This document shows, one piece after another, positions 29,768 through 51,918 of a DNA stretch of 64,000 bases. The notes under the pieces were generated by a model that worked only from the letters and a program-made list of their open reading frames with translations, was not told the DNA's origin and ran no database searches. The stretch lies in contig NZ_CP064908.1 in assembly GCF_015841355.1 (NCBI RefSeq), positions 2,976,001 through 3,040,000 on the forward strand, in the 5' to 3' direction. Numbering within the stretch: position 1 is the first letter of the stretch; every line of letters starts with the position of its first letter. Source of the stretch: Synechococcus sp. CBW1107 (lineage in GTDB: Bacteria > Cyanobacteriota > Cyanobacteriia > PCC-6307 > Cyanobiaceae). The translations under genes and the position numbers were made by a program.

Positions 29768-30147
29768 TGCCGGCGCAACAAATTAGAATTCAACAAGATG
29801 CACGAGACGAAGTAAAGTATTAAACTGAATGTTAAAGACTTAACGTCGATAGTACTTACAAGCATCTAGCCTCATGTAATGCACTAGGCAAAAAGAATGG
29901 ACCGCGTATATCACTCGACATCCCAAAATAGCCTGCATTTTTTACCGGCAAGGCTTGGAATTCAGAGGCTGTCCGCTTAGCAAAGAATCGCTTAGCATCA
30001 CAAAACTTTAAATTAGACACACATCAACACATAACAGGGGGCATAGCTATAGATGTAACGCAATCTACACGTAGCGGCATGCAGGTCTAAGCATAATTTA
30101 CAGTATGAACGATTCGTAAATAAAAATGGAATTTGCTTGTGAAACAA
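29768..30147. other. AT-rich intergenic region
   Basis: 380 bp with no plausible coding frame, duplicated at 51919-52298. It lies after the stop of the 354-aa hypothetical gene and ends at the IS3-b tip. It contains short direct AT-rich runs but no clear hairpin terminator. Confidence 0.4.
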
Positions 30148-31212
30148 TTATGAAATTTGAACGTCATCTAAGAAATAAATAACTGAACGATCAACCCGAG
30201 ACGAATAAAAAAGCGTTTGGGAATAATCTAGATGATGCACAAGCATCGGCACAAGATCATGGTCACGATGCACGACTTTGTCAACTAATACAAATGTAGA
30301 GCCAAATTCAGATGAACAATACATAGAAGTTGTTGTATAATCTAGGCTGAATACACAAAGCCTGTTAGACTGAGAAAATTTGGAAGACAAGTCACAATGC
30401 TGTGAAGAAGCTAAGACCAAGCCTAATGATGGGTGAACTATGACTGATGCAGAAGGTGCAAATGACAATGAATTATCAATGGAGAAGAGAGAACGTCCAA
30501 GAACAAGAGTAGGCTTAGCCGAGCCCTTACAGGCAAATAGTCTAGATTCAACCCCACAACTCAAAGTTCTGATAGAAGAATCATTGGCAACAAGTGCAAC
30601 CGTATGATCACTGAACTCAATAGCATCAACAGGTGACAGGTACGGATAGTGAGATTGAAAAACAGAGATAGCATTGACTATTGCCGAACTGCAATTATAA
30701 CAGGATGATAATGGCGATGCAAGATTCCTTATAGATAGTACATCACGATAACTATGAAACGGAACACAAACTGAGGACAAGAAAGACTCGTTGAAGGCAT
30801 TATCATTAAGCAAAGGAGAACTATTCAAAGTAGACGCACCTAGCAAGTTAGCACGAGGTTTACAGAGTTTAAGTAATTGATTCCAATGACTAGAATTGCA
30901 ATTAATCTTAGCGCTAGTCACTTTGATACCCACAGAAGGGTCAAAATGTAAAACATACAAGAAAGGTTGAGTACTTTCAGGCTCGTCAGTTATAAAGAAT
31001 AGCTCACCATTGAGCGATGAACCAAGATAAACAAAGTAGTACGGAAGCACAAAGCGTGCATCAGAAAAAGATGATGTACAATAGACAAGAGTGCGAGAAG
31101 AAGTCGTAGTAAGAAGAACCCACAGTCCGGCAGAATTGATTGACTGATGGACAGCCAATATTTGCTGAGTCTCGCTGGCCCCTCCAGGGAGGGGAATAGA
31201 AAGCAAATTCAT
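30148..31212 (-). CDS. Hypothetical protein, 354 aa (left-arm copy)
   Basis: Identical in translation to the copy at 50854-51918, described there. It lies four bases beyond the sulfotransferase stop and is the last gene of the four-gene run. In this arm the first gene of that run is broken by IS256-F, which may reduce transcription of this gene unless the element supplies a promoter. Confidence 0.6.
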   Translation of the reverse strand: MNLLSIPLPGGASETQQILAVHQSINSAGLWVLLTTTSSRTLVYCTSSFSDARFVLPYYFVYLGSSLNGELFFITDEPESTQPFLYVLHFDPSVGIKVTSAKINCNSSHWNQLLKLCKPRANLLGASTLNSSPLLNDNAFNESFLSSVCVPFHSYRDVLSIRNLASPLSSCYNCSSAIVNAISVFQSHYPYLSPVDAIEFSDHTVALVANDSSIRTLSCGVESRLFACKGSAKPTLVLGRSLFSIDNSLSFAPSASVIVHPSLGLVLASSQHCDLSSKFSQSNRLCVFSLDYTTTSMYCSSEFGSTFVLVDKVVHRDHDLVPMLVHHLDYSQTLFYSSRVDRSVIYFLDDVQIS

Positions 31213-31216
31213 TCGT

Positions 31217-32200
31217 TCAAGCGTAGCCAAGTTGTGCTTCGATATCTAAGACTAGTTCAAGTATTGACTGATTCCAATCTTGTAAACGCGAAATAGCTTC
31301 CTCGCTACTAGACCTCTCCACGTAGTAGCGAGTAAAGTTTGAGCGATCATTTGAATTTAGGTAAGTCCTGACTTGTTCGAATGAATATTCCTTCCTGCGC
31401 ATCGGTCTAAATTCAGGATTAGTAATAAACTTTGGATCATTACCACATGGAGCCATACGGGGTCCAAAGAAGGCATACGGAGAATTCTCTGGATGGAGCA
31501 TTTCATCGATGCTTCGCTTGTCAGTCGACACTCCTAACCACTCGCAGATTTGAGGAAGTACTGAATGTGGCTCAGTTAGGATAGACTCACCCTTGACTGT
31601 AAGAAAATTGGACGGAGGTATAATCGAACGAAACTTCAATATGCTCTTATGAGTAGCATACCACATTAAAGCATAGTTATCTTTAACAAGTGGATGTCGG
31701 AGACTCTTACGCTCACCTTGATTTGAATCACGATGTTCAAAAAACTCCTTAAGTGACTTAGAAGAGCCTACGACACTCCGAGTAAGATGGATGAATTTGG
31801 CTTTGGGATAAAATTTGAAAAGTCTTATCATTCGATCAATTGATCGAGTATTTCCAGGCGATTTCTCAATACATAGCTTGGGTTCATGAGCCGCACACAA
31901 ATAATCAAACAATTCCTTAGTAGATAGAGATCTATGATTGGCAAGCCACATCCATGCACGACTGCAGGAAGCACTATTCTGAACCTGTTCATGAATCTGT
32001 GCAATTGCTCGTAGCAGTCCACTAGGAGCAAAACGAGATTGAGTAATATTAGATTTACTTGAAAGAACATGCTCTATATCATCGCGCCATAACAGATGCA
32101 ACTCCGGAAAGCAATAAAGCTGGGGATGCTGTCCAATTATAGACGAAACAACTGAAGAAAAGGAACGAGGGGGACTCAATAAGAAGATAGGCTCACTCAT
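31217..32200 (-). CDS. Sulfotransferase family protein (left-arm copy)
   Basis: Same protein as 49866-50849, which carries the full description. Start overlaps the end of the preceding gene by eight bases. All PAPS-binding motifs are present in this copy. Confidence 0.78.
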   Translation of the reverse strand: MSEPIFLLSPPRSFSSVVSSIIGQHPQLYCFPELHLLWRDDIEHVLSSKSNITQSRFAPSGLLRAIAQIHEQVQNSASCSRAWMWLANHRSLSTKELFDYLCAAHEPKLCIEKSPGNTRSIDRMIRLFKFYPKAKFIHLTRSVVGSSKSLKEFFEHRDSNQGERKSLRHPLVKDNYALMWYATHKSILKFRSIIPPSNFLTVKGESILTEPHSVLPQICEWLGVSTDKRSIDEMLHPENSPYAFFGPRMAPCGNDPKFITNPEFRPMRRKEYSFEQVRTYLNSNDRSNFTRYYVERSSSEEAISRLQDWNQSILELVLDIEAQLGYA

Positions 32201-32717
32201 GAGATTGAATATTAAAAAGGTTTCTCTTAAGAACGTTGTAACGATGCTGCATTCGGTCCTTCAGATTCTGAAGATCATTAATGAGTTCAGTAGAAAGAAT
32301 CAAATCAGATGACTCATCATTATGAAAAGAAGGATCAATTGGGTCAAATAAGAATTTAAATAACGCTACATGAGCATTTTCAGACTCCATCTCACTGAAG
32401 GGCTCCGCTACAAGCTCAGAACTTGATGGCTGAGGATCAAGCTGATGTTCAGCATCTTCGTCATCCGAAACATCAACGTAAGATTGATCGGCATCTTTTC
32501 GGGAAACTGAAACAATCTGAGTCAGTGTATTGTATTCTATACTGTTTTCTCGACCAGCAACAGTGCTGTCAAGATTAGCTCGCTCCATCAATACCTCAAG
32601 ACAAGAGTCGAAGGAATTAGCGGTCTGGTACTGCGTAGTTTCACTTTTATGAGCTTCATGAGATGAGTCGTCAACTGTTTTAGTTGTTAGAAAATTAAAA
32701 AGCGAGGAATTCTTCAT
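32193..32717 (-). CDS. Acidic hypothetical protein, 174 aa (left-arm copy)
   Basis: Same protein as 49349-49873. It is intact and lies 12 bases after the stop of the hydrolase gene that IS256-F disrupts. Confidence 0.55.
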   Translation of the reverse strand: MKNSSLFNFLTTKTVDDSSHEAHKSETTQYQTANSFDSCLEVLMERANLDSTVAGRENSIEYNTLTQIVSVSRKDADQSYVDVSDDEDAEHQLDPQPSSSELVAEPFSEMESENAHVALFKFLFDPIDPSFHNDESSDLILSTELINDLQNLKDRMQHRYNVLKRNLFNIQSHE

Positions 32718-33472
32718 TGTTAAGTCGGATTAATTTAACGAACTTAAGAGGGTGCTTGTTAGGGACTCGCTAGATAGCGACTTGTGCTTGGTGATAACGT
32801 TAGATAAATATAACTTGTTGAAGTCATCAAGCTTTTCTGAATCGAACGTCAAGCAATCATGTGACTTTAAGGGAGGCAAGGGCCTTGTGTCAATGACAAC
32901 TTGACTGGATATGACATCTTCTAACTTAGATGACTCCGTGAGCACACTAATATTGCTTAATCCAAGGAGGGTTGAATGGTATAGACACATTCTCGAATGT
33001 CGATCTTCAGCATGGATAAACATCTTAACATGACTTCTGGAAGTTCTTGCCCTGATCCCAGTCCAGGAAGAAGGAACATGCTGGTATGAATCAGCTGGTC
33101 CTGAAATGAGCAGCACGCCGTTGAGACTGTGATCTATAGCCATAACTGCGGCGTGCCCTGCTCCTTGACTATGACCAACAACTAGTGTGTGAGAAAGGAT
33201 CTCATGATCAGAAATTGAATTACCATGACGTTTCCTAACTTGTTCTAGAAAAGATCCCATGACTGAGTCCTCATAGGCAATCGAAAGTCTCGAATCCGAT
33301 ATTGATTGGCTACCATAAATTAACTCTCGACGGACCTGGAGCATACAATCTGAACTATAAAACTCAGAATTTAGTTTGGCGACAGTAGTAGAGACCGGAT
33401 AATCAACAGTGTAAAAGTCACTATTATGTGCCAAACATTGACTCAACCAGACATAATCGGAACTTCGGCGAA

Positions 33473-35072
33473 AGCGGCGTCCCAGCAAGTGGTGTAACTC
33501 AGGAGGATCAGCCCCGGCGTAGCCGGGGCTGACGGCTCACCTCCCTCAGATTTCAGCTGTGGCAATGGGTGGGCCGGTCTGTGACCCTGTTCGGAGAACT
33601 ACCACCAAACCGAACACAGACCATGACCCTCACCCATAGTGGCGCCTCCGAGCTGAGCCAGCTCATGGAGGGCACCACCGCTGGCGCCCTGATCCCAGAG
33701 ATCGTGCGCCGGGGTTTCCAGGACCTGCTGGAAGCCGAGGTTTCTGCCCTCACGGGCGCTCAACTCCATGAGCGCTGCCCCGATCAGCGCTCCACCCATC
33801 GCAACGGCTACCGGGAGCGGCTGCTCACCACCCAGGTGGGCGACCTCAGCCTGGCCATTCCCAGGTTGCGGCAGGGCAGCTTCTTTCCCAGCTGGCTGGA
33901 GCCACGCCGCCGGGTGGACAAGGCGCTCTACGCCGTGGTGATGGAGGCCTACACCGGCGGGATCTCCACCCGCAAGGTCGACGCCCTGGTGGAGGCGCTG
34001 GGCGGGGCCAGCGGCATCTCCAAATCGGAGGTGAGCCGCATCTGCCAGGGGCTCGATGAGCAGGTGAAAGCCTTTCTGGGCCGGCCGCTTGACCATGCCC
34101 GCTTTCCCTACGTCTACCTCGACGCCACCTACCTCCACGGCCGCCTGGGCCGAAATATGCAGGTGGTGTCGCGGGCGGTGGTGGTGGCGATCGGCATCAA
34201 TGCCCTCGGCTACCGCGAAGTTCTCGGCATTGCCGTGGGCGACAGCGAGGCGGAGGGCTTCTGGCGTCAGTTCCTGGGCTCACTCAAGGAGCGTGGCCTC
34301 GACGGCACCCGCCTGGTGATCTCGGATGCCCACCTGGGCCTGACGGCAGCGATCAAGCGGATGTTCCAGGGCAGTAGCTGGCAGAGGTGCCGGGTGCACT
34401 TCCTGCGCAACCTGCTGAGCCATGTGCCCAAGGCCGGCCAGGACATGGTGGCCGCTGCCATGAAAGCGGTGTTCGTGATCCAGGCTCCAGATCAGGTGCG
34501 CGCCCACTGGCAGCGGGTCACCGAGATGCTGCGCAAGCAGTTCCCCGGCGCCGTGCCCGTGATGGAAGCCGCCCGGGACGACGTGCTGGCCTTCCTGCAC
34601 TTCCCCCAGGAGCACTGGCGCAAGGTCTGGAGCACCAACCCGCTCGAGCGCCTCAACAAGGAGATCAAACGCCGCACCAACGTGGTCGGCATCTTCCCCA
34701 ATGATCCAGCGATCGTGCGCCTGGTGGGCAGCCAGCTGCTGGAGCAGCAGGAGGAATGGCAGCTGGAGCGTCGCCGCTTCTTCTCTGAGGCCACCATGGC
34801 CAAGATCCCAGAGCCAGAAGAGCCCTTGGAGCTCACCGATGCAGATCCGAACGCCCAGCCGGCTGCAACCATCAGCTGAAGCGCACCAGCTTCTACCTCG
34901 ATCTACACAGAACACATCGATCGCTGAGTTGCCAATTCAGCGATCAGGGTTCATAATGGATCAATGGAGCTGCGCAATCAGCTTCCAAGCAGTCATCCCC
35001 TGACTGCTCCTGTTCACCCTCCGGAGAGGGTCACAGGACCTCCTGAGTTACACCACTCGGAGGGGCGCTACC
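33473..35072 (+). mobile_element. IS256-family element copy F, intact
   Basis: 1600 bp, 8-bp duplication TCGGCGAA. It is present only in the left arm, so it inserted after the 7.8-kb segment was duplicated. Confidence 0.97.
33569..34879 (+). CDS. IS256-family transposase (copy F)
   Basis: Full length, DDE residues intact and translation identical to copies B, C, E and I. It is read opposite to the hydrolase gene it interrupts. Confidence 0.96.
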   Translation: MGRSVTLFGELPPNRTQTMTLTHSGASELSQLMEGTTAGALIPEIVRRGFQDLLEAEVSALTGAQLHERCPDQRSTHRNGYRERLLTTQVGDLSLAIPRLRQGSFFPSWLEPRRRVDKALYAVVMEAYTGGISTRKVDALVEALGGASGISKSEVSRICQGLDEQVKAFLGRPLDHARFPYVYLDATYLHGRLGRNMQVVSRAVVVAIGINALGYREVLGIAVGDSEAEGFWRQFLGSLKERGLDGTRLVISDAHLGLTAAIKRMFQGSSWQRCRVHFLRNLLSHVPKAGQDMVAAAMKAVFVIQAPDQVRAHWQRVTEMLRKQFPGAVPVMEAARDDVLAFLHFPQEHWRKVWSTNPLERLNKEIKRRTNVVGIFPNDPAIVRLVGSQLLEQQEEWQLERRRFFSEATMAKIPEPEEPLELTDADPNAQPAATIS

Positions 35073-35108
35073 TCGGCGAAAACTGCCGGGCAGAAAAAGA
35101 GTAAACAT

Positions 35109-36133
35109 AGAAACTGTTGATCAAAGATTAAGAATAAACCAGGATTGGTGGGGGCTCACCATTCGTGCTGACAATCAAACAAGTGGAACGGCGAGCTTCG
35201 CACAGACTTTTGGGAATGGAAATCGAGCAGTGGAAACGCCGAGGTGATGACTGGTGCTCAGAGAGCATGGCATGGCTGTGTGTGCCATAGTGCTGCATCA
35301 ATCGACTTCGGAGATGTACCGGGATGAGCACGCTAGGATCATCCAGTGATCAAGGCAGAGTCCAGCCACATTGATCATCCTGAATGACGCTTCTCTTAGG
35401 AATGTTGAAAATTGTTCAGATGAGGTTTCACTTATCAATTTATTGCGTCTGCTATTTGAAGTAATGCTGCACCCAAATTCGACAAGATAGGCCCAGACAA
35501 TAATTGTTGCATCCATATAGTTAGAGACAAATCACAATAGCGTTTAGCTAGGCTGACTTGAGTGGCTTTAAGTCATGCAGTTCAGCCGCCTTGACATACT
35601 ATTCATTATAGTCAAGTAATCTATTCATGATCGACTTGACGTATTTATACTTATGCAGCTAGGATAACCTCCATTCGCAATGACTAGCGCTCAAAGTAAT
35701 GATCACAGCAACCTAGTAATATACTGGGTAAGCGAGAGAGCTAAGGATTTGCTCCAGCCGAACAAGCGAGAAATACCAAAGTCAATCAATGGTGATTTTC
35801 AAACGGAAGTTTTAGTCTTTATTCTCTAAAGTAGAACCACCCCTTCATTCAGGGAGACAAGCATCGTCAAAGATTGATAATATAATGTAGCAATAAAAGG
35901 ATGATGAGACAGTCACGTTAATTTAGCTAGGAACGAACTGCTGGAAAGCAGTTTTCTCAGATTTTACTGGAAAAGTAATCCATGCAAATGAGAACCAATG
36001 AAAATTTCCTAATGATAACGCAAAAAGCTCAGATTCTCAGGCGCTATTTATGTCACCAATCCTCGACAAACATCTAGAGTTGACTACCACTGGTTGACGG
36101 TGCTAGGATTTTTTGGCTTAGAGATGCTCGACA
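35109..36133. promoter_or_regulatory. Long divergent intergenic region of the accessory cluster
   Basis: 1025 AT-rich bases between the divergent hydrolase and TPR genes, duplicated at 47541-48565. No credible gene is present; frames of 67-72 codons lack family character. The stretch 35591-35615 is an imperfect palindrome with TTGACATACTAT on one side and TATAGTCAA on the other, and TTGAC recurs at 35635 and 36094. TTGACG at 36094, with CTTAGA 17 bases later, is a possible promoter 11 to 40 bases before the TPR gene. This region probably holds both promoters and a regulator site. Confidence 0.4.
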
Positions 36134-37165
36134 ATGGCTGTGGTGCTTCCAGGTCACTTGAAATCAACCTTCAAGCAGGTGCGGTCCCTGATCGTTAAAG
36201 AGAAAAATTTTCCTGAGGCAAGAAGGATCTTGGCTGGAGTTCCTGATGGGGAACTCTATGCTCCATATCACGTAGCCATGGCTGCAATTGCTCGATCAGA
36301 AAGTGATGCTGCAGTTGCAATGGCTCACCTTGAAAAAGCACTTTCATTAACACCTGAAGACATTAGGTTGCTTTCTCGTATTGGTAAGCTGAGGCTTCAA
36401 GAAGGTAATAAACTTTTAGCACAAGAGTACGCAAACAGGGCTCTTCTACAGAAGCCGACCAAGAAGTCGGATGTAACTGCACTAGCATCATTCTTGCAAC
36501 AGCTCGGAGATGCTGATAACGCAGCTAAAATTCTACGTGAAGCAGTTCTTCAAAATCCTAACGACACAAAGCTACGCAGGATGCTTGCTATTGCTCAACT
36601 TCAGCTAGGACAGCTGGATGAATGCGAACGCAATCTTAATAACTGCTTGAGACTTGATCCGAAAAATCATTATTCACAAATTCTCCTTGGTGAAATTCTA
36701 ATCGCACAGGGTAATAAAGTGCGTGGTTTGGCAGTTCTTCGTTCAGCAGACAATGATGAATGTCCTTCAAAACTCAAAGAGCGCCTATCGATTGATGCGG
36801 CTGAATGCTATATAGATCTTGGTGAATACAGTGCTGCCAAGGATGAACTTACCCGAGTGCAAAGCAGCAACAGTCCTCGCTTTAACTATTGCTGGGGTAA
36901 GATTCAATATCAAGATAAAGATTATGAATTTGCATTGTCCAGCTTGATGGCTGCATCAAAGTCCATTGGACCGGATGGAGACTCGACCAATGCTCCAATT
37001 GTAGATCCTTCAAGCCTTACTAAAGAGGATCAGCAGAGTCGCTGTGAGCAGCTGATTCACGATTTGGCAGGAAAACTGGAAAAGTTGAAAACTACTGGAT
37101 ATGGATCATCTCAAAGCGGAGTGAATCAAAGTACTATGTTTGATGATAATGATGATGAATTCTAA
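36134..37165 (+). CDS. TPR-repeat protein (left-arm copy)
   Basis: This 343-aa protein is built almost wholly of tetratricopeptide-like helix pairs from about residue 20 to 290; AVAMAHLEKALSLTPEDIRL, AKILREAVLQNPNDTKL and DECERNLNNCLRLDPKNHY each end in the usual P-x-D/N. Such solenoids hold protein complexes together. The tail is polar and ends in DDNDDEF. No signal or membrane segment was seen, so it should be cytosolic. It begins the rightward operon and is followed after 35 bases by the HlyD-fusion gene, so it may be an adaptor of that exporter or of the sulfotransferases. The duplicate at 46509-47540 translates identically. Confidence 0.75.
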   Translation: MAVVLPGHLKSTFKQVRSLIVKEKNFPEARRILAGVPDGELYAPYHVAMAAIARSESDAAVAMAHLEKALSLTPEDIRLLSRIGKLRLQEGNKLLAQEYANRALLQKPTKKSDVTALASFLQQLGDADNAAKILREAVLQNPNDTKLRRMLAIAQLQLGQLDECERNLNNCLRLDPKNHYSQILLGEILIAQGNKVRGLAVLRSADNDECPSKLKERLSIDAAECYIDLGEYSAAKDELTRVQSSNSPRFNYCWGKIQYQDKDYEFALSSLMAASKSIGPDGDSTNAPIVDPSSLTKEDQQSRCEQLIHDLAGKLEKLKTTGYGSSQSGVNQSTMFDDNDDEF

Positions 37166-37200
37166 AGTATTTTGTACGCCCTAACCTTTCGTTTATTCCC

Positions 37201-39795
37201 ATGATAGTTGGTGATAGTTGTTATTACTCTATAAATCCATCAGTACGAACTTCTCCCCTAGTAGAAGGGCAATATCGTTTATATTTTGGTGACCGAACCA
37301 CTTCGTTTAAGTTGTCCGCATCTGAATGGGATGCCATTCTTAATGCTGATTCAAGTGGTGGTTCGGTCGACTTTCTTTTTTCTAATTGCAAGAACTTTTT
37401 TGATACATCTCGCGCAGATATTAAGCGAGATGAATATATTTCTTGGTTATGTGAAAAGGGAATATTGCTTCCAGTTGATCCTCATCATTTTGCGATAAAC
37501 TCAAATCCAGACTCATTGTCTTCGAATGGATCTACAAGTTCCTTATATCCACCGAATGGATCAAGAACAGAACGCAATAAGGTAACAACATCAAAGGAAG
37601 ATCGTAAAATTTTACTTTTAAGTTTTAATTGGATTACCTCCCGTGGACTTTTAAGACCTCCGAGAGCCTTAATCAGCCTGCAAGCCTGGCTTTTCCCTTT
37701 GACAGTAATACTGTTTATAGGTACTATATACAGTTTTTACTTTGGGGTAAAGCCACTAGCAGTCTTATTGTCACAAAGGTCTGATCCTCTGACAGGTTTG
37801 TCGCGCCTCTTGATCATGTTAATTGTGATTAACCTGATCAGTGTCATGATATCTATTCTTCTGTCATATTCTCTAAATATAGATGATCAAAAGTTATATC
37901 TTAGACTAAAATGGGGCTTTTTGCCTAGGTTAGCCAAAGAACAAAATAGCAAGGAAATCAAGCAACGAGCAACAAAGCTTGAAGAATTGATATTAGTTGC
38001 CCAACCACTGCTAGTACGTCTATATCTTGTTGTCTTTTCAATCCTGTATTTATATATTTATACCCCAATACCTGACAGCTCACCTTATTCTCGCCTCAAT
38101 ATTCTAGTTGCAATCATACAAGGCGCATTAGCTAGTATGATTATTTTGCTGATTCCAGTACGGAATACTCCAGGCAGAAGATTGCTTGAGTTCTTTGGGG
38201 TCATGCCTAAGAACTATCTCAAAATTTCAGTAAAGCGTACTTTTACAACATTATCTCATCTTTTTAAGGGAAAATTTAGTCAAATAACCTTGTCAAAGTC
38301 TGATATCAATAGCTTGCTTTTCCTAATTGCTTTATTAATAGCATTTACCATCAAAATGCTTATACTTTACAATATTCTTATACCAAACATATCCGCCGAG
38401 GTTCCTCAGTTTGCCGGTCATTGGACTGCATTAATAGTCCGGATTGCACTAACTGTTTTACTTATCCGCTTTTTATACCTAACTTTTTTTACCAAACTTA
38501 TAGCAAGCCGTTCTTCACATAAAACTGACGAGTTGTCTATACTTGCCAAACCAAAATCCTACACTTTGGGTACACCTGATCAATCATTGCCAAATCAATC
38601 TCTTGGTGCGGCAAATTCATTTCTTCATTCTTTGCACTTCGGTATTACAAGCTTTTTTAGCAGCAAATTTTTCCTAGCTTTTATCCTAATTATCATATTC
38701 TTGTTTCCATTCAGGGCATCTGTAACAGGTTCTGCAAATGTAACAGAAGGTGAATCTCTTGACATACGTTCTACGGAAACGGCAGTTGTTAAACAAATCT
38801 TTCAAGCTGGACCATCGTCGATTATCTTAAAAAATGGAACAAAGATACTTCAAATGTACTCACCAACATTAAGTTCTCAGCGTAGTCAGCAGATGCAACT
38901 CATTTCAAAATTGGATTCAGATATTCGAACTCAAAGGACACTTATTCAATCTATTCGCACGGGAAGCATTAAACTTGAAGGAGAGAATCGTGACGAGGAA
39001 CTCCAAAGCGCATATGCAATGGTTCAAAAAGTAAAGTCAAAGATTACATCCCTACAAAATCAGATTAAGATTCAGAATGGTCAAATAGTAAAGCTGAGAG
39101 GTTTAACAAAGTCTGGAGCAATCAGCGAATTTCAACTTCAAAACCTATTATCTTCTCAAGAAGCTCTTACAGGCGAATTAGAGGGTGCCAAAAGTGAGTT
39201 AACATCTGCTTTGGCAGATGTAACAATCGCCCAGAGAAAACAGAAAATTGATCAAGATGTAAATTCAGGAGAGCAACTATCCAAAGCTCTAGACGAATTA
39301 AGTTCAGCCGAAAGTAGCTTGAAAGTTGGCAAAATTGCATTGGAAGCTATAGAGGCTCGTATCAGTAAGCTCACGCTTGTAATGCCTTTTGATGGAGTCA
39401 TCAGTTCAAATACTAGAGCATTGTTGAACAGAACTGTCACACCAGGAGAGACAATATTAACCGTGAAAGCTCAGCCGCTTACTCAGACAAGCGCCTTGAT
39501 TCCTGAATATGATCGAGCACGAGTTCGTATTAACTTACCTTGTGTGCTGAGACTATATTCTGTTTCAGATCAGGAATTTAAGGGTACAGTTTCATCTATT
39601 AGTCCATCAACAGTTGAGCTTGATGGCCTACAATACGTTGAACTGCAGATTCAATTAGATGACAGTCTGCCTACAAATTTTATCGGATCAAAAGGTTATG
39701 CTAAAATTGATGTTGGCTATACCTGTATCCTTTTAAATCTCATATCTCCTATTACTAGGTTTATCAACGTGGATCTTTGGTCTCTCCTTCCCTAG
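37201..39795 (+). CDS. Membrane protein fused to an HlyD-type periplasmic adaptor
   Basis: 864 aa. Residues 1-100 form a soluble domain. Membrane segments lie at about 160-182, 203-224, 268-290, 300-320, 370-395 and 407-431, with a seventh at 489-507. After that comes an HlyD/membrane-fusion part: first lipoyl half near 530-555, a long coiled coil at 560-730, second lipoyl half LTLVMPFDGVISSNT near 735 and a beta-barrel to the end. The order matches M50 peptidase-HlyD fusions that export or process peptides, but I find no HExxH; YSLNIDDQKLYLRLKWGFLPRL occupies the place that follows HExxH in that family. It should span the inner membrane and reach into the periplasm. Translated start ATG 37201. 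The inverted copy at 45079 is cut at residue 463. Confidence 0.75.
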   Translation: MIVGDSCYYSINPSVRTSPLVEGQYRLYFGDRTTSFKLSASEWDAILNADSSGGSVDFLFSNCKNFFDTSRADIKRDEYISWLCEKGILLPVDPHHFAINSNPDSLSSNGSTSSLYPPNGSRTERNKVTTSKEDRKILLLSFNWITSRGLLRPPRALISLQAWLFPLTVILFIGTIYSFYFGVKPLAVLLSQRSDPLTGLSRLLIMLIVINLISVMISILLSYSLNIDDQKLYLRLKWGFLPRLAKEQNSKEIKQRATKLEELILVAQPLLVRLYLVVFSILYLYIYTPIPDSSPYSRLNILVAIIQGALASMIILLIPVRNTPGRRLLEFFGVMPKNYLKISVKRTFTTLSHLFKGKFSQITLSKSDINSLLFLIALLIAFTIKMLILYNILIPNISAEVPQFAGHWTALIVRIALTVLLIRFLYLTFFTKLIASRSSHKTDELSILAKPKSYTLGTPDQSLPNQSLGAANSFLHSLHFGITSFFSSKFFLAFILIIIFLFPFRASVTGSANVTEGESLDIRSTETAVVKQIFQAGPSSIILKNGTKILQMYSPTLSSQRSQQMQLISKLDSDIRTQRTLIQSIRTGSIKLEGENRDEELQSAYAMVQKVKSKITSLQNQIKIQNGQIVKLRGLTKSGAISEFQLQNLLSSQEALTGELEGAKSELTSALADVTIAQRKQKIDQDVNSGEQLSKALDELSSAESSLKVGKIALEAIEARISKLTLVMPFDGVISSNTRALLNRTVTPGETILTVKAQPLTQTSALIPEYDRARVRINLPCVLRLYSVSDQEFKGTVSSISPSTVELDGLQYVELQIQLDDSLPTNFIGSKGYAKIDVGYTCILLNLISPITRFINVDLWSLLP

Positions 39796-39802
39796 CCAAG
39801 TA

Positions 39803-40873
39803 ATGATTACCATCTATCCTGCATTACCGCATGCAAGTACGTTGCCAAACCCCATCGAATTTTATCGATTAAACTTTGTCATCAGTGCTCCTAGAGGTGG
39901 CGCAATATCATTCAGCAACAGAATGAATCAGTTGGGGCAGATTGGCCTTCCACATACTCACCTTCCTGTAAGAAGCGATTCTAACCACCTTAAACAAGTT
40001 AATTCTACTCTCGATCTTTACAGCATTGACGATGGCTTAATTCGTGCGTTGTCTGGAATTATCTATGGTGGCTTTGAAACCTATCAACTTGAAGCGGCGC
40101 ATCATGATCTCAGCATGATGTATTCAAGAGATACTTTTGGACAGGTTTATCAAAGGCTTTTGGCCAATAGCAGCTGCAATCTGTATGATCCTTCGTTCAG
40201 CTTAGCATTATTTCCTGATGAGATTCCCCGGTTAGAATCTAATTTCCCAGGTGCACGCTATATATATCTTTTTAGAGATCCTTATTTTTATGCTTCTTCA
40301 ATACTGACCACGATTCACGGCTTAGACTCACTTCTGATTTGGTGGTCAATTGCTAAGGAGTTTAATTCCAACATAGCACTGGATCCACTCATAATGTGGT
40401 GCTCGATCAATGAATCACTTCTTGTATCAAAGGAAAAACATCGTACGGCTAGCTCTGTGCACGTAATCCGCCACCCTGAAGCAATTGGTCGTTATTCACT
40501 TGAACGTTTTAATCAGTTCATCGGATCAGAATATGCAAGCTACCAGCCACCACTTTCTCGCTCTATCCCTAGCAATTTTGTAACCTTGCCTTTCATGCGA
40601 AGGATGTCCATGAGCACACGACTAAGTAAAATGACTTCTATAATATCAGAGACTACCATTTCACCGATACAAGATAAGACTTCTTGGTGGCTTGATATCA
40701 CCTTAGGTGGTGATCCATCGGCAAACTTATCTTATCATTCAAATCCAGGCGAAATAGTACCTGATTACTGGAAACAGATAATGCACAATTCTGAGTTGAT
40801 TGACCGCTGTGATAAACTATGTAGGGCTCTAGGGTTTACGCCCCTTTCCACAAGGCTGTCTACCAATCAATAG
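39803..40873 (+). CDS. Sulfotransferase-like protein, second type
   Basis: This 356-aa protein starts seven bases after the HlyD-fusion stop, so the two are in one operon. VISAPRGGAISF near residue 27 stands where sulfotransferases have the 5'-phosphosulfate loop (SxPRSG/F). ARYIYLFRDPYFYASS near residue 150 matches the 3'-phosphate loop with its R-D-P. Conservation is weaker than in the 327-aa enzyme, and the first loop lacks the usual Ser/Thr run, so activity is uncertain. It would transfer sulfate from PAPS to a hydroxyl or amine of a carbohydrate or protein. It lies outside the duplicated segment, so there is only one copy. Confidence 0.6.
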   Translation: MITIYPALPHASTLPNPIEFYRLNFVISAPRGGAISFSNRMNQLGQIGLPHTHLPVRSDSNHLKQVNSTLDLYSIDDGLIRALSGIIYGGFETYQLEAAHHDLSMMYSRDTFGQVYQRLLANSSCNLYDPSFSLALFPDEIPRLESNFPGARYIYLFRDPYFYASSILTTIHGLDSLLIWWSIAKEFNSNIALDPLIMWCSINESLLVSKEKHRTASSVHVIRHPEAIGRYSLERFNQFIGSEYASYQPPLSRSIPSNFVTLPFMRRMSMSTRLSKMTSIISETTISPIQDKTSWWLDITLGGDPSANLSYHSNPGEIVPDYWKQIMHNSELIDRCDKLCRALGFTPLSTRLSTNQ

Positions 40874-41044: not shown

Positions 41045-41794
41045 AGCGGCGTCCCAGCAAGTGGTGTAACTCAGGAGGATCAGCCCCGGCGTAGCCGGGG
41101 CTGACGGCTCACCTCCCTCAGATTTCAGCTGTGGCAATGGGTGGGCCGGTCTGTGACCCTGTTCGGAGAACTACCACCAAACCGAACACAGACCATGACC
41201 CTCACCCATAGTGGCGCCTCCGAGCTGAGCCAGCTCATGGAGGGCACCACCGCTGGCGCCCTGATCCCAGAGATCGTGCGCCGGGGTTTCCAGGACCTGC
41301 TGGAAGCCGAGGTTTCTGCCCTCACGGGCGCTCAACTCCATGAGCGCTGCCCCGATCAGCGCTCCACCCATCGCAACGGCTACCGGGAGCGGCTGCTCAC
41401 CACCCAGGTGGGCGACCTCAGCCTGGCCATTCCCAGGTTGCGGCAGGGCAGCTTCTTTCCCAGCTGGCTGGAGCCACGCCGCCGGGTGGACAAGGCGCTC
41501 TACGCCGTGGTGATGGAGGCCTACACCGGCGGGATCTCCACCCGCAAGGTCGACGCCCTGGTGGAGGCGCTGGGCGGGGCCAGCGGCATCTCCAAATCGG
41601 AGGTGAGCCGCATCTGCCAGGGGCTCGATGAGCAGGTGAAAGCCTTTCTGGGCCGGCCGCTTGACCATGCCCGCTTTCCCTACTGTCAGGCGACAGCGAA
41701 AACTGGTCCGGAGGCGACACGAAAACTGGTCCACCCCGTGGAGCGAGCCAGGCAGGACGACAAGGGCAGCGCAGGGGCGCCATCTCTGGAGCCG

Positions 41795-45078: not shown

Positions 45079-46473
45079 CTACCGCAATGATTGATCAGGT
45101 GTACCCAAAGTGTAGGATTTTGGTTTGGCAAGTATAGACAACTCGTCAGTTTTATGTGAAGAACGGCTTGCTATAAGTTTGGTAAAAAAAGTTAGGTATA
45201 AAAAGCGGATAAGTAAAACAGTTAGTGCAATCCGGACTATTAATGCAGTCCAATGACCGGCAAACTGAGGAACCTCGGCGGATATGTTTGGTATAAGAAT
45301 ATTGTAAAGTATAAGCATTTTGATGGTAAATGCTATTAATAAAGCAATTAGGAAAAGCAAGCTATTGATATCAGACTTTGACAAGGTTATTTGACTAAAT
45401 TTTCCCTTAAAAAGATGAGATAATGTTGTAAAAGTACGCTTTACTGAAATTTTGAGATAGTTCTTAGGCATGACCCCAAAGAACTCAAGCAATCTTCTGC
45501 CTGGAGTATTCCGTACTGGAATCAGCAAAATAATCATACTAGCTAATGCGCCTTGTATGATTGCAACTAGAATATTGAGGCGAGAATAAGGTGAGCTGTC
45601 AGGTATTGGGGTATAAATATATAAATACAGGATTGAAAAGACAACAAGATATAGACGTACTAGCAGTGGTTGGGCAACTAATATCAATTCTTCAAGCTTT
45701 GTTGCTCGTTGCTTGATTTCCTTGCTATTTTGTTCTTTGGCTAACCTAGGCAAAAAGCCCCATTTTAGTCTAAGATATAACTTTTGATCATCTATATTTA
45801 GAGAATATGACAGAAGAATAGATATCATGACACTGATCAGGTTAATCACAATTAACATGATCAAGAGGCGCGACAAACCTGTCAGAGGATCAGACCTTTG
45901 TGACAATAAGACTGCTAGTGGCTTTACCCCAAAGTAAAAACTGTATATAGTACCTATAAACAGTATTACTGTCAAAGGGAAAAGCCAGGCTTGCAGGCTG
46001 ATTAAGGCTCTCGGAGGTCTTAAAAGTCCACGGGAGGTAATCCAATTAAAACTTAAAAGTAAAATTTTACGATCTTCCTTTGATGTTGTTACCTTATTGC
46101 GTTCTGTTCTTGATCCATTCGGTGGATATAAGGAACTTGTAGATCCATTCGAAGACAATGAGTCTGGATTTGAGTTTATCGCAAAATGATGAGGATCAAC
46201 TGGAAGCAATATTCCCTTTTCACATAACCAAGAAATATATTCATCTCGCTTAATATCTGCGCGAGATGTATCAAAAAAGTTCTTGCAATTAGAAAAAAGA
46301 AAGTCGACCGAACCACCACTTGAATCAGCATTAAGAATGGCATCCCATTCAGATGCGGACAACTTAAACGAAGTGGTTCGGTCACCAAAATATAAACGAT
46401 ATTGCCCTTCTACTAGGGGAGAAGTTCGTACTGATGGATTTATAGAGTAATAACAACTATCACCAACTATCAT
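45079..46473 (-). pseudogene. HlyD-fusion gene, truncated by IS256-G (right-arm copy)
   Basis: Residues 1-463 match the full gene at 37201, then IS256-G begins and a TAG at its tip ends the frame after one changed residue. The six-helix membrane part is complete, while the last membrane segment and the whole HlyD adaptor are missing. It might yield a stable membrane protein that competes with the full protein, or nothing. Upstream it keeps the same spacing to the TPR gene; the one base that differs between arms is in this spacer (46496). Confidence 0.88.
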
Positions 46474-46508: not shown

Positions 46509-47540
46509 TTAGAATTCATCATCATTATCATCAAACATAGTACTTTGATTCACTCCGCTTTGAGATGATCCATATCCAGTAGTTTTCAACTTTTCCAGTT
46601 TTCCTGCCAAATCGTGAATCAGCTGCTCACAGCGACTCTGCTGATCCTCTTTAGTAAGGCTTGAAGGATCTACAATTGGAGCATTGGTCGAGTCTCCATC
46701 CGGTCCAATGGACTTTGATGCAGCCATCAAGCTGGACAATGCAAATTCATAATCTTTATCTTGATATTGAATCTTACCCCAGCAATAGTTAAAGCGAGGA
46801 CTGTTGCTGCTTTGCACTCGGGTAAGTTCATCCTTGGCAGCACTGTATTCACCAAGATCTATATAGCATTCAGCCGCATCAATCGATAGGCGCTCTTTGA
46901 GTTTTGAAGGACATTCATCATTGTCTGCTGAACGAAGAACTGCCAAACCACGCACTTTATTACCCTGTGCGATTAGAATTTCACCAAGGAGAATTTGTGA
47001 ATAATGATTTTTCGGATCAAGTCTCAAGCAGTTATTAAGATTGCGTTCGCATTCATCCAGCTGTCCTAGCTGAAGTTGAGCAATAGCAAGCATCCTGCGT
47101 AGCTTTGTGTCGTTAGGATTTTGAAGAACTGCTTCACGTAGAATTTTAGCTGCGTTATCAGCATCTCCGAGCTGTTGCAAGAATGATGCTAGTGCAGTTA
47201 CATCCGACTTCTTGGTCGGCTTCTGTAGAAGAGCCCTGTTTGCGTACTCTTGTGCTAAAAGTTTATTACCTTCTTGAAGCCTCAGCTTACCAATACGAGA
47301 AAGCAACCTAATGTCTTCAGGTGTTAATGAAAGTGCTTTTTCAAGGTGAGCCATTGCAACTGCAGCATCACTTTCTGATCGAGCAATTGCAGCCATGGCT
47401 ACGTGATATGGAGCATAGAGTTCCCCATCAGGAACTCCAGCCAAGATCCTTCTTGCCTCAGGAAAATTTTTCTCTTTAACGATCAGGGACCGCACCTGCT
47501 TGAAGGTTGATTTCAAGTGACCTGGAAGCACCACAGCCAT
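46509..47540 (-). CDS. TPR-repeat protein (right-arm copy)
   Basis: Same 343-aa protein as at 36134-37165. Here it is followed by a truncated partner gene, so any complex with the HlyD fusion would need the other arm's product. Confidence 0.75.
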   Translation of the reverse strand: MAVVLPGHLKSTFKQVRSLIVKEKNFPEARRILAGVPDGELYAPYHVAMAAIARSESDAAVAMAHLEKALSLTPEDIRLLSRIGKLRLQEGNKLLAQEYANRALLQKPTKKSDVTALASFLQQLGDADNAAKILREAVLQNPNDTKLRRMLAIAQLQLGQLDECERNLNNCLRLDPKNHYSQILLGEILIAQGNKVRGLAVLRSADNDECPSKLKERLSIDAAECYIDLGEYSAAKDELTRVQSSNSPRFNYCWGKIQYQDKDYEFALSSLMAASKSIGPDGDSTNAPIVDPSSLTKEDQQSRCEQLIHDLAGKLEKLKTTGYGSSQSGVNQSTMFDDNDDEF

Positions 47541-48565: not shown

Positions 48566-49336
48566 ATGTTTACTCTTTTTCTGCCCGGCAGTTTTCGCCG
48601 AAGTTCCGATTATGTCTGGTTGAGTCAATGTTTGGCACATAATAGTGACTTTTACACTGTTGATTATCCGGTCTCTACTACTGTCGCCAAACTAAATTCT
48701 GAGTTTTATAGTTCAGATTGTATGCTCCAGGTCCGTCGAGAGTTAATTTATGGTAGCCAATCAATATCGGATTCGAGACTTTCGATTGCCTATGAGGACT
48801 CAGTCATGGGATCTTTTCTAGAACAAGTTAGGAAACGTCATGGTAATTCAATTTCTGATCATGAGATCCTTTCTCACACACTAGTTGTTGGTCATAGTCA
48901 AGGAGCAGGGCACGCCGCAGTTATGGCTATAGATCACAGTCTCAACGGCGTGCTGCTCATTTCAGGACCAGCTGATTCATACCAGCATGTTCCTTCTTCC
49001 TGGACTGGGATCAGGGCAAGAACTTCCAGAAGTCATGTTAAGATGTTTATCCATGCTGAAGATCGACATTCGAGAATGTGTCTATACCATTCAACCCTCC
49101 TTGGATTAAGCAATATTAGTGTGCTCACGGAGTCATCTAAGTTAGAAGATGTCATATCCAGTCAAGTTGTCATTGACACAAGGCCCTTGCCTCCCTTAAA
49201 GTCACATGATTGCTTGACGTTCGATTCAGAAAAGCTTGATGACTTCAACAAGTTATATTTATCTAACGTTATCACCAAGCACAAGTCGCTATCTAGCGAG
49301 TCCCTAACAAGCACCCTCTTAAGTTCGTTAAATTAA
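48566..49336 (+). CDS. Alpha/beta hydrolase-like protein (intact copy)
   Basis: This 256-aa protein opens with MFTLFLPGSF and has the nucleophile elbow GHSQG at residues 109-113 (Ser111), preceded by the strand HTLVV and followed by AGHAAVMA, as in alpha/beta hydrolases. After the next strand (NGVLLISGP) an Asp in IHAEDRH and a His in KSHDCL could complete the triad. It has no signal peptide. Such proteins include esterases and thioesterases; the substrate is unknown. It heads a run of four genes with spacings of 12, -8 and 4 bases, so all four are probably one transcript. It is AT-rich like the rest of the cluster. Confidence 0.65.
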   Translation: MFTLFLPGSFRRSSDYVWLSQCLAHNSDFYTVDYPVSTTVAKLNSEFYSSDCMLQVRRELIYGSQSISDSRLSIAYEDSVMGSFLEQVRKRHGNSISDHEILSHTLVVGHSQGAGHAAVMAIDHSLNGVLLISGPADSYQHVPSSWTGIRARTSRSHVKMFIHAEDRHSRMCLYHSTLLGLSNISVLTESSKLEDVISSQVVIDTRPLPPLKSHDCLTFDSEKLDDFNKLYLSNVITKHKSLSSESLTSTLLSSLN

Positions 49337-49348
49337 TCCGACTTAACA

Positions 49349-49873
49349 ATGAAGAATTCCTCGCTTTTTAATTTTCTAACAACTAAAACAGTTGACGACT
49401 CATCTCATGAAGCTCATAAAAGTGAAACTACGCAGTACCAGACCGCTAATTCCTTCGACTCTTGTCTTGAGGTATTGATGGAGCGAGCTAATCTTGACAG
49501 CACTGTTGCTGGTCGAGAAAACAGTATAGAATACAATACACTGACTCAGATTGTTTCAGTTTCCCGAAAAGATGCCGATCAATCTTACGTTGATGTTTCG
49601 GATGACGAAGATGCTGAACATCAGCTTGATCCTCAGCCATCAAGTTCTGAGCTTGTAGCGGAGCCCTTCAGTGAGATGGAGTCTGAAAATGCTCATGTAG
49701 CGTTATTTAAATTCTTATTTGACCCAATTGATCCTTCTTTTCATAATGATGAGTCATCTGATTTGATTCTTTCTACTGAACTCATTAATGATCTTCAGAA
49801 TCTGAAGGACCGAATGCAGCATCGTTACAACGTTCTTAAGAGAAACCTTTTTAATATTCAATCTCATGAGTGA
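49349..49873 (+). CDS. Acidic hypothetical protein, 174 aa
   Basis: The protein is rich in Ser, Asp and Glu (DVSDDEDAEHQLDPQPSSS near residues 85-100), with a more ordered C-terminal third (ALFKFLFDP, then a helix LINDLQNLKDRMQHRYNVLKR). No family is recognised. The layout, with a disordered acidic N-terminus and an amphipathic C-terminal helix, could suit a chaperone or scaffold, or a cargo protein; I cannot choose. Its last eight bases overlap the sulfotransferase start, showing coupled translation. Confidence 0.55.
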   Translation: MKNSSLFNFLTTKTVDDSSHEAHKSETTQYQTANSFDSCLEVLMERANLDSTVAGRENSIEYNTLTQIVSVSRKDADQSYVDVSDDEDAEHQLDPQPSSSELVAEPFSEMESENAHVALFKFLFDPIDPSFHNDESSDLILSTELINDLQNLKDRMQHRYNVLKRNLFNIQSHE

Positions 49874-50849
49874 GCCTATCTTCTTATTGAGTCCCCCTCG
49901 TTCCTTTTCTTCAGTTGTTTCGTCTATAATTGGACAGCATCCCCAGCTTTATTGCTTTCCGGAGTTGCATCTGTTATGGCGCGATGATATAGAGCATGTT
50001 CTTTCAAGTAAATCTAATATTACTCAATCTCGTTTTGCTCCTAGTGGACTGCTACGAGCAATTGCACAGATTCATGAACAGGTTCAGAATAGTGCTTCCT
50101 GCAGTCGTGCATGGATGTGGCTTGCCAATCATAGATCTCTATCTACTAAGGAATTGTTTGATTATTTGTGTGCGGCTCATGAACCCAAGCTATGTATTGA
50201 GAAATCGCCTGGAAATACTCGATCAATTGATCGAATGATAAGACTTTTCAAATTTTATCCCAAAGCCAAATTCATCCATCTTACTCGGAGTGTCGTAGGC
50301 TCTTCTAAGTCACTTAAGGAGTTTTTTGAACATCGTGATTCAAATCAAGGTGAGCGTAAGAGTCTCCGACATCCACTTGTTAAAGATAACTATGCTTTAA
50401 TGTGGTATGCTACTCATAAGAGCATATTGAAGTTTCGTTCGATTATACCTCCGTCCAATTTTCTTACAGTCAAGGGTGAGTCTATCCTAACTGAGCCACA
50501 TTCAGTACTTCCTCAAATCTGCGAGTGGTTAGGAGTGTCGACTGACAAGCGAAGCATCGATGAAATGCTCCATCCAGAGAATTCTCCGTATGCCTTCTTT
50601 GGACCCCGTATGGCTCCATGTGGTAATGATCCAAAGTTTATTACTAATCCTGAATTTAGACCGATGCGCAGGAAGGAATATTCATTCGAACAAGTCAGGA
50701 CTTACCTAAATTCAAATGATCGCTCAAACTTTACTCGCTACTACGTGGAGAGGTCTAGTAGCGAGGAAGCTATTTCGCGTTTACAAGATTGGAATCAGTC
50801 AATACTTGAACTAGTCTTAGATATCGAAGCACAACTTGGCTACGCTTGA
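49866..50849 (+). CDS. Sulfotransferase family protein
   Basis: A 327-aa enzyme expected to transfer sulfate from PAPS. The 5'-phosphosulfate loop is FLLSPPRSFSSVVS at residues 6-19, and the 3'-phosphate loop is KFIHLTRSVVGSSKS at 135-149 (Arg141 and the following serines). CIEKSPGN near residue 110 is the block that often precedes the acceptor site. No signal or membrane anchor is visible, so it acts in the cytosol. Bacterial members of this type modify cell-surface glycans, lipids or peptides. It lies between the acidic protein and the 354-aa protein. Together with the second sulfotransferase-like gene in the divergent operon it suggests that sulfation is central to the cluster. Confidence 0.8.
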   Translation: MSEPIFLLSPPRSFSSVVSSIIGQHPQLYCFPELHLLWRDDIEHVLSSKSNITQSRFAPSGLLRAIAQIHEQVQNSASCSRAWMWLANHRSLSTKELFDYLCAAHEPKLCIEKSPGNTRSIDRMIRLFKFYPKAKFIHLTRSVVGSSKSLKEFFEHRDSNQGERKSLRHPLVKDNYALMWYATHKSILKFRSIIPPSNFLTVKGESILTEPHSVLPQICEWLGVSTDKRSIDEMLHPENSPYAFFGPRMAPCGNDPKFITNPEFRPMRRKEYSFEQVRTYLNSNDRSNFTRYYVERSSSEEAISRLQDWNQSILELVLDIEAQLGYA

Positions 50850-50853
50850 ACGA

Positions 50854-51918
50854 ATGAATTTGCTTTCTATTCCCCTCCCTGGAGGGGCCAGCGAGACTCA
50901 GCAAATATTGGCTGTCCATCAGTCAATCAATTCTGCCGGACTGTGGGTTCTTCTTACTACGACTTCTTCTCGCACTCTTGTCTATTGTACATCATCTTTT
51001 TCTGATGCACGCTTTGTGCTTCCGTACTACTTTGTTTATCTTGGTTCATCGCTCAATGGTGAGCTATTCTTTATAACTGACGAGCCTGAAAGTACTCAAC
51101 CTTTCTTGTATGTTTTACATTTTGACCCTTCTGTGGGTATCAAAGTGACTAGCGCTAAGATTAATTGCAATTCTAGTCATTGGAATCAATTACTTAAACT
51201 CTGTAAACCTCGTGCTAACTTGCTAGGTGCGTCTACTTTGAATAGTTCTCCTTTGCTTAATGATAATGCCTTCAACGAGTCTTTCTTGTCCTCAGTTTGT
51301 GTTCCGTTTCATAGTTATCGTGATGTACTATCTATAAGGAATCTTGCATCGCCATTATCATCCTGTTATAATTGCAGTTCGGCAATAGTCAATGCTATCT
51401 CTGTTTTTCAATCTCACTATCCGTACCTGTCACCTGTTGATGCTATTGAGTTCAGTGATCATACGGTTGCACTTGTTGCCAATGATTCTTCTATCAGAAC
51501 TTTGAGTTGTGGGGTTGAATCTAGACTATTTGCCTGTAAGGGCTCGGCTAAGCCTACTCTTGTTCTTGGACGTTCTCTCTTCTCCATTGATAATTCATTG
51601 TCATTTGCACCTTCTGCATCAGTCATAGTTCACCCATCATTAGGCTTGGTCTTAGCTTCTTCACAGCATTGTGACTTGTCTTCCAAATTTTCTCAGTCTA
51701 ACAGGCTTTGTGTATTCAGCCTAGATTATACAACAACTTCTATGTATTGTTCATCTGAATTTGGCTCTACATTTGTATTAGTTGACAAAGTCGTGCATCG
51801 TGACCATGATCTTGTGCCGATGCTTGTGCATCATCTAGATTATTCCCAAACGCTTTTTTATTCGTCTCGGGTTGATCGTTCAGTTATTTATTTCTTAGAT
51901 GACGTTCAAATTTCATAA
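50854..51918 (+). CDS. Hypothetical protein, 354 aa, beta-rich
   Basis: Ser/Leu/Val-rich with many short predicted beta strands (LWVLLTTTSSRTLVYCTSS, YFVYLGSSLNGELFFITDE, PTLVLGRSLFSID, SASVIVHPSLGLVLASSQH). The spacing suggests a beta-propeller or beta-sandwich, but no repeat signature is clear. Ten or so Cys are scattered. I chose the ATG at 50854; a TTG at 50836 would overlap the sulfotransferase by 14 bases. No signal peptide is seen. As the last gene of the run it could be a binding protein for the product; the function is unknown. Confidence 0.6.
   Translation: MNLLSIPLPGGASETQQILAVHQSINSAGLWVLLTTTSSRTLVYCTSSFSDARFVLPYYFVYLGSSLNGELFFITDEPESTQPFLYVLHFDPSVGIKVTSAKINCNSSHWNQLLKLCKPRANLLGASTLNSSPLLNDNAFNESFLSSVCVPFHSYRDVLSIRNLASPLSSCYNCSSAIVNAISVFQSHYPYLSPVDAIEFSDHTVALVANDSSIRTLSCGVESRLFACKGSAKPTLVLGRSLFSIDNSLSFAPSASVIVHPSLGLVLASSQHCDLSSKFSQSNRLCVFSLDYTTTSMYCSSEFGSTFVLVDKVVHRDHDLVPMLVHHLDYSQTLFYSSRVDRSVIYFLDDVQIS

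Follow-up and report, generated by a model that had tools for sequence, protein, structure and literature searches.

The window analysed here is a stretch of 64,000 nucleotides from the cyanobacterium Synechococcus sp. CBW1107 (NZ_CP064908.1, positions 2,976,001 to 3,040,000). We focus on one gene in it (37201..39795, + strand), an open reading frame (ORF) with exactly these limits and an ATG start that encodes a protein of 864 amino acids (aa) composed of three parts. Residues 1-154 (37201..37662, +) make up a soluble N-terminal part, and hhalign profile comparison aligns its residues 9-92 with the soluble domain found at the N-terminus of true M50 proteins. Residues 155-509 (37663..38727, +) form a membrane part with six M50-derived helices and a seventh (anchor) helix, described from hydropathy, charge, hhalign, and the ratio of nonsynonymous to synonymous substitution rates (dN/dS). 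The remainder (38728..39792, +) is a HlyD-type periplasmic adaptor domain, assigned by Pfam, NCBIfam, and the family alignment, with RFINVDLWSLLP as its C-terminal end. Alignments place the lost HExxH motif at residues 214-218 (SVMIS; 37840..37854, +) and the lost third metal ligand, the Asp of NPLxxFDGY, at P324 (38170..38172, +). Below, we argue that this pseudo-M50-HlyD fusion belongs to a clade of predicted pseudo-proteases and that its core probably serves in export.

In the C-terminal third, Pfam HlyD_3 (PF13437) matches residues 728-821 with 31.3 bits (cut-off 22.2). HlyD_D23 remains slightly under its own cut-off (28.9 vs 30 bits), and the NCBIfam models TIGR01843 (residues 566-821) and TIGR01730 (674-813) both match below theirs. 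According to hydropathy, helices 1-6 are found at about residues 155-433 and the seventh at 488-509. With the helix limits placed by hand from this profile, the summed lysine and arginine counts of loops 2, 4, and 6 are 9, 9, and 4, and those of loops 1, 3, and 5 are 2, 1, and 0, a positive-inside pattern by which the N-terminus is cytoplasmic and the HlyD part periplasmic. Most full-length family members are marked by the C-terminal motif RFxxVExWSWxP. Pfam Peptidase_M50 (PF02163) does not match the fusion protein even at E≤1, and a search of the PDB gave no match at E≤1 either. The soluble N-terminal domain is one that we take to be PqqD-like; Pfam PqqD matches weakly (E 0.032) in one of the eight family members scanned, and neither in the window protein nor in the two true M50 proteins scanned.

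The M50 origin of the membrane part becomes visible through its relatives, not from the single sequence alone. A class-wide profile search of 388 genomes led to 19 genomes, two of which (G156 and G399; genomes and loci are given by our own G and L numbers) hold true HELGH proteins and are excluded from the family counts. Together with G031, and with G422, G566, and G621 from 300 genomes of the window's taxonomic family, the other 17 make up the 21 family genomes discussed here. A profile of 14 family members, covering the N-terminal and membrane parts only and leaving out L064 and L065, was compared by hhalign with seven HExxH-bearing M50 proteins. The match (99.4%, E 5e-22, score 168, 340 columns) runs colinearly from the soluble domain at the N-terminus across most of the membrane core. 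Controls scored far lower: reversing the profile gave 17, and no more than 22 was reached in 60 composition-keeping column shuffles. A three-row profile including the window protein still matched M50 at 97.6% (E 3e-12). Identity to true M50 proteins in the profile alignment is about 11%, and residues of the second motif are kept in the family, namely Pro in 20/20, Gly in 16/20, and Tyr in 16/20 members. In the reverse direction, a search of 194 genomes with an HExxH profile recovered family members from G048, G106, G067, G042, and G049 (E 3e-14 to 3e-7). By profile comparison, the membrane part is thus homologous to the M50 site-2 protease core. An earlier note on this DNA had proposed an M50-HlyD-like fusion without HExxH and suggested a profile comparison with M50 families as a check; that comparison came out positive, and the order it described (soluble domain, then M50 core, then HlyD) is the one found.

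The core has lost its metal site. Neither HExxH nor HE, HxxxH, or HxxE occurs anywhere in the 864 residues, and the seven histidines are scattered (positions 95, 96, 353, 407, 440, 476, and 479), which rules out an unusual metal site as well. The HELGH of true M50 proteins aligns onto S214-S218 and is followed by a conserved 'YGG.V.E.G...P' segment, so the earlier note had rightly read residues 223-246 as the stretch that follows HExxH. It had also asked whether the metal ligand of the second motif was missing. Indeed, NPLxxFDGY aligns with IPVRNTPGR, where the Asp has become Pro324. With all three ligands gone from the window protein and HExxH in 0/20 relatives, the pseudo-protease that the note had suspected is what the sequences indicate.

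The loss extends to the relatives. Among 20 family members, the position of the first His is occupied by S in 11, by A in six, and by T, G, and V in one each, the Glu position is most often K (9/20), and that of the second His most often Q (12/20). None of the three HExxH residues is retained in place in any of them, which rules out a sequencing error or one-off decay. The third-ligand Asp, on the other hand, is retained in 12/20 members vs 33/33 comparison proteins. The latter were filtered for HExxH and a length of at least 350 aa, so that short proteins were left out, both those with the motif (L101, L102, and L127) and those ending before the site (L106, L110, and L122). In a maximum-likelihood tree, from which the frameshifted G164 gene, the two relatives without a membrane core (L064 and L065), and the truncated second copy in the window were excluded, the 20 family proteins split from the 33 HExxH proteins with an ultrafast bootstrap of 100 on a branch of 1.40. 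Such a split is what one loss would leave, and the zinc site was thus, most simply, lost once, at the base of the cyanobacterial clade. The same division is seen among 47 scored ORF rows from the loci of the reverse and phylum searches (some of which are one gene fetched twice): the seven nearer to the family profile all lack HExxH, the 37 nearer to M50 all carry it, and the remaining three are too short to reach the site. Pseudo-protease status beyond the window's own gene, for the whole clade, is therefore supported at the level of sequence.

The dead core is still under purifying selection. Between the window protein and its relative in G031 (95.5% identical), pairwise Nei-Gojobori dN/dS is 0.116 over the whole protein. 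Residues 131-510 (the membrane part) have a ratio of 0.089, the HlyD part one of 0.079, and the first 130 residues one of 0.40. The membrane part, having a ratio close to that of the HlyD part, is thus constrained about as much as the adaptor. Within the group of G048, G067, and G106, the close pairs have ratios of 0.06 to 0.12, and pairing these genomes with G081 yields 0.37. In G164, the fusion gene (L048:7019-9614) is split by a frameshift amid neighbours that are complete ORFs, reflecting either early decay or an assembly error.

In the window's taxonomic family, the fusion is present in 8/300 genomes, and it is absent from all eight congeners sampled. Four family genomes are what we take to be Gloeobacter-type, with G048 presumably Gloeobacter violaceus. 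In a search of the phylum (292 genomes, hardly covering presence outside Cyanobacteria), every match outside the class was an HExxH protein except a 145-aa ORF of G657, which ends before the site. A contig library yielded a weak HlyD match at most, and plasmids and phages yielded no family member; plasmid matches were obtained for the HExxH cousin in G399, in Calothrix and Nostoc, which fits a cyanobacterial placement.

Around the fusion gene, the window holds two divergent operons. Directly upstream lies a gene for a tetratricopeptide repeat (TPR) protein (36134..37165, +; Pfam), and directly downstream one for a 356-aa protein (39803..40873, +) that is weakly sulfotransferase-like (PF13469 E 0.0027, below cut-off) and has relatives in G031, G164, and G422. 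The divergent operon on the other strand encodes a BPSS1187-family or alpha-beta-hydrolase-like protein (32730..33488, -; NF047580 below cut-off in the second copy, plus weak hydrolase matches), a 174-aa acidic protein without a family match (32193..32717, -; analysed on the identical second copy) that again has relatives in G031, G164, and G422, a 327-aa sulfotransferase (31217..32200, -; PF13469 by Pfam), and a 360-aa protein without a family match in the NCBIfam scan and neighbour comparison (30148..31230, -). In G422 (L083), relatives of the window's seven genes lie in one stretch as complete ORFs, with no element seen between them.

In the window itself, this set of genes has been duplicated and invaded. 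An inverted duplication pairs 29173-33473 and 35073-38590 with 52893-48593 and 48601-45084, respectively (99.97-100% identical). The second copy comprises the four-gene divergent operon (48566..51918, +; 29173-33473 vs 52893-48593 at 100%), the TPR gene (46509..47540, -; Pfam and self-comparison), and an inverted fusion gene (45079..46473, -; self-comparison), which is cut after about residue 463 by a Mutator-type insertion sequence (IS), presumably of the IS256 family. In copy 1, the fusion gene is whole, though such an element (33473..35073, strand not assigned; Pfam Transposase_mut and self-comparison) separates the two operons. It is absent at that place from copy 2, which keeps the empty site, with the matching blocks overlapping there by nine bases. 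GC content is 0.375 in the fusion gene and 0.663 in the window's first 8 kb. Elsewhere in the genome, a remnant of a polyketide synthase (PKS) gene (C1:83164-84573, L137:10165-11574) encodes a protein that over its first 453 residues shares 98.5% identity with a 1099-aa PKS of G164, which belongs to another genus. Acyltransferase-domain matches in this genome at E≤1e-10 come down to one 346-aa frame, which is FabD-sized. Taken together, the island looks like a transferred cluster that has since been broken up here.

Across the family, the surroundings of the fusion gene point to biosynthesis. Neighbours were chosen as the longest non-overlapping ORFs, which hides some genes in GC-rich genomes. 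A relative of the TPR gene adjoins the fusion or lies one gene away in at least 8/21 genomes, a count that omits one G048 ORF read as TPR by eye only. A PF13469 sulfotransferase occurs within 10 kb in 10/18 genomes, or in 13/21 when three are added by BLAST likeness. PKS or nonribosomal peptide synthetase (NRPS) genes are found within about 13 kb in 12/21 genomes (G031, G085, G164, G248, G286, G324, G378, G403, G416, G422, G566, and G621). In G286, G324, G416, and G085, a PKS gene adjoins the fusion or a split-off HlyD gene, and the PKS of G085 and G286 carry a C-terminal phosphopantetheinyl transferase (PPTase) domain. The best model for the PKS proteins scanned is PfaA or a related type I PKS, below cut-off. 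In G378 (L060), two NRPS genes flank the fusion and TPR genes. The four Gloeobacter-type genomes have sulfotransferase genes there, plus TauD and sulfatase genes where the ORF calls resolve.

Some of these loci hold features of their own. One NRPS of G378 ends in a peptidyl carrier protein (PCP)-sulfotransferase-thioesterase arrangement and may represent sulfotransferase-assisted chain release. In G248 (L058:12027-16942), a chlorinating-enzyme homologue (below cut-off), a PhyH-like gene, and more sulfotransferase-like genes stand beside the fusion, making a halogenated sulfated lipid pathway possible there. Finally, many of the loci have, close to the fusion or the PKS, a member of a protein family some 440-550 aa long (e.g., L052:1527-2876 and L083:403-1860), for which the three members scanned gave no Pfam match.

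With no cutting site left, and with neighbours that apparently make sulfated lipids or polyketides, the fusion probably helps in export instead of proteolysis. We thus consider it fairly probable that the pseudo-protease uses its M50 core as an inner-membrane platform for exporting a sulfated product of the polyketide or lipid type. The dead core would be the base that holds the periplasmic HlyD ring against a TolC-type channel. The pathway encoded nearby probably yields a sulfated polyketide-type lipid or lipopeptide, which the core and the cytoplasmic N-terminal domain would bind or pass on. For the transport step, the fusion would be joined by a pump from elsewhere, or its own core would let the product through. 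Such a scaffold role, which the earlier note had suggested, is consistent with the selected, intact membrane part, the periplasmic HlyD domain, and the biosynthetic neighbours. Moreover, in the 42 kb of G422 that were viewed, no ORF other than the fusion is predicted to have more than two membrane helices (by crude hydropathy of the longest non-overlapping ORFs). A bolder version, in which the clade has recast the site-2 protease fold as a non-enzymatic exporter base without any dedicated ATP-binding cassette (ABC), resistance-nodulation-division (RND), or major facilitator superfamily (MFS) pump, seems rather unlikely to us.

Several observations weigh against the export reading or parts of it. 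In G422, the scanned neighbours include a single transporter family, a GDT1-type cation antiporter, and no ABC, RND, MFS, or TolC gene (the transporter scan did not take in every neighbour of every genome), which leaves the exporter complex incomplete on paper. Two relatives have no membrane core at all, as they keep just the N-terminal domain and the HlyD part (L064:6109-7761, 550 aa, and L065:6741-8414, 557 aa). Beside the latter, in G128, an RND pump of the AcrB type is encoded together with another HlyD adaptor that belongs to it, so the fusion may depend on a separate pump; it is this AcrB pump that lowers the probability of the pump-free version. The window's own gene was not recovered by the HExxH profile at E≤1e-6, and single-sequence AlphaFold models of the full protein and of its first 101 residues both have a pLDDT of 43, with no usable fold. 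The biosynthetic linkage has gaps too: no sulfotransferase was found within 10 kb in 8/21 genomes and no PKS within 13 kb in 9/21 (by acyltransferase-domain search; NRPS not searched systematically), with the genome of the window and all four Gloeobacter-type genomes among the latter nine. The PKS remnant of the window's genome, a PfaA-like ketosynthase fragment, is cut by a copy of the window's Mutator-type IS.

The statistics on fusion and PKS have to be read with similar care. When the G286 PKS, itself a neighbour of a family member, was used as the query against the 300 genomes of the window's family, 29 matched at E≤1e-70, including all eight fusion carriers. The matches at E<1e-85, a cut picked after viewing the list, represent one PfaA-like PKS type and come from nine genomes, namely the eight carriers and G586, with the ketosynthase aligned from query residue 2-27 on. 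Fisher tests of fusion and PKS give 6e-15 for the nine genomes and 3e-9 for the 29, on the assumption that both searches covered identical genomes. G586 has the PKS and no fusion gene on its 19-kb contig.

Several known systems resemble the fusion in part. The closest are M50-HlyD fusions on plasmids of Azospirillum, Magnetospirillum, Pseudosulfitobacter, and Thalassospira (L067-L070), which have the same order and an adaptor-like C-terminus and are annotated as biotin/lipoyl-binding (two), HlyD (one), and site-2 protease (one). They retain HExxH and the Asp, whereas the window family lacks HExxH and the window protein lacks both. Their loci contain other adaptor or HlyD genes (4/4), TolC (3/4), and large LEPR-XLL or M10 proteins (3/4), partners that were not seen for the window family as far as it was scanned; no ABC gene is listed within the stretches of these loci viewed. 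Cyanobacteria also have stand-alone M50 proteins next to a HlyD gene (e.g., L061:6869-8305 and 8340-9884), which by hhalign share the N-terminal and membrane parts. Unlike the window fusion, they have HELGH and FDGY, and HlyD is a separate gene. A site-2 protease (S2P) homologue without HExxH that is retained in a non-proteolytic role is known from plants as EGY3, according to PMC10978774. This is a chloroplast protein, likened here by description. To our knowledge, neither a HlyD domain nor a biosynthetic cluster is known for EGY3. In HlyB, a C39 peptidase-like domain sits inside a secretion machine, as PMC11026475 describes. It comes from an unrelated peptidase family and is joined to an ABC transporter rather than to an adaptor. 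The domain is inactive and binds substrate. HlyD-type adaptors, finally, operate with an ABC, RND, or MFS pump (PMC8277102). The window protein shares with these membrane fusion proteins the C-terminal adaptor domain (PF13437 above cut-off). Ordinary HlyD adaptors are simply anchored.

Four other explanations can be set against export by a dead protease core, and they differ strongly in how much they explain. The fusion could be a passenger on a foreign, IS-shattered island, functionless in this strain and heading for a pseudogene. We regard this as a real though clearly lesser possibility, given its low GC content, its absence from the congeners, the frameshifted G164 copy, and the Mutator-type IS, which cuts the second copy and, at another site of the genome, also the pathway's PKS. 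As the pathway is disrupted in this way, the window's copy may be idle. However, the first copy is a complete ORF flanked by complete TPR and downstream ORFs, the overall dN/dS against G031 is low (though this counts past selection too), and the seven complete genes of G422 imply that at most the window's copy is idle, not the family. Alternatively, the exported substrate might be a ribosomal sulfated peptide, with the PqqD-like domain gripping its leader and, for example, the 174-aa acidic protein as substrate. The alignment of the N-terminal part with the soluble domain of true M50 proteins, the weak PqqD match in one relative, the frequent sulfotransferase neighbours, and the conservation of the 174-aa protein in G031, G164, and G422 would fit. 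Nevertheless, we judge this quite unlikely, because the best-linked genes are PKS and NRPS, and no radical SAM, LanM, YcaO, or ATP-grasp match was found among the neighbours scanned. A cytochrome P450 of G085 does have ApyO, a P450 of ribosomally synthesized and post-translationally modified peptides (RiPPs), as its best match, but far below cut-off.

The remaining two explanations concern the core itself. Instead of being part of an exporter, it might regulate an active intramembrane protease. There are precedents in the iRhoms, which are missing key catalytic residues and act as inhibitors of rhomboid signalling according to PMC3149277, and in EGY3, described in PMC10978774 as stabilising other chloroplast proteins. 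Yet a search of the window's genome at E≤1e-6 brought up no HExxH protein of this kind of M50 (eight of 15 first-look candidates were scored), which leaves no close active relative in view for it to regulate, and the HlyD domain and the biosynthetic linkage favour export, making a regulatory role very unlikely. Lastly, the membrane part could belong to an unrelated transporter, its M50 likeness being chance hydrophobicity, for which the lack of a Pfam M50 match and the low identity in the profile alignment might be adduced. The hhalign score of 168 against at most 22 in shuffles rejects this identity at the profile level, and the colinear N-terminal and membrane parts and the second-motif residues agree with that rejection. 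This last explanation is therefore hardly credible.

If the pump-free version of the export reading were true, a single chain would unite a cytosolic domain that recognises the substrate, an intramembrane-protease core that is dead, and a HlyD adaptor, and would move sulfated polyketide or lipopeptide products outward without a pump. In any case, bacterial site-2 pseudo-proteases that form a single clade and are under selection show that the intramembrane-protease fold can be retained for work other than cutting. The link between the HlyD fusion and sulfotransferase and PKS genes offers a direct handle on the role of the poorly known M50-HlyD proteins and on the way cyanobacterial polyketide- or lipid-type products leave the cell, and the family sequence could be used as a marker for mining such clusters. 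In the open-licence literature searched, no description of such a pseudo-M50-HlyD family was found. Likewise, M50, S2P, and site-2 do not appear in the main text of a review on metallopeptidase pseudoenzymes (PMC11266112).

The rest of the window adds some minor observations. Many near-identical copies or pieces of the 1.6-kb Mutator-type IS are present (e.g., 18166-19767, 21545-23144, 27282-28883, 33473-35073, and 60786-62386), some of which are broken by a 2.4-kb IS21-type element (IstB_IS21; 11438-13871, 41684-44117, and 56082-58515). So many virtually identical copies suggest a recent IS expansion. The window also encodes a patatin-like phospholipase that resembles RssA, below cut-off (8652-9803), and a protein of the parallel beta-helix/NosD-like kind (24583-26151).

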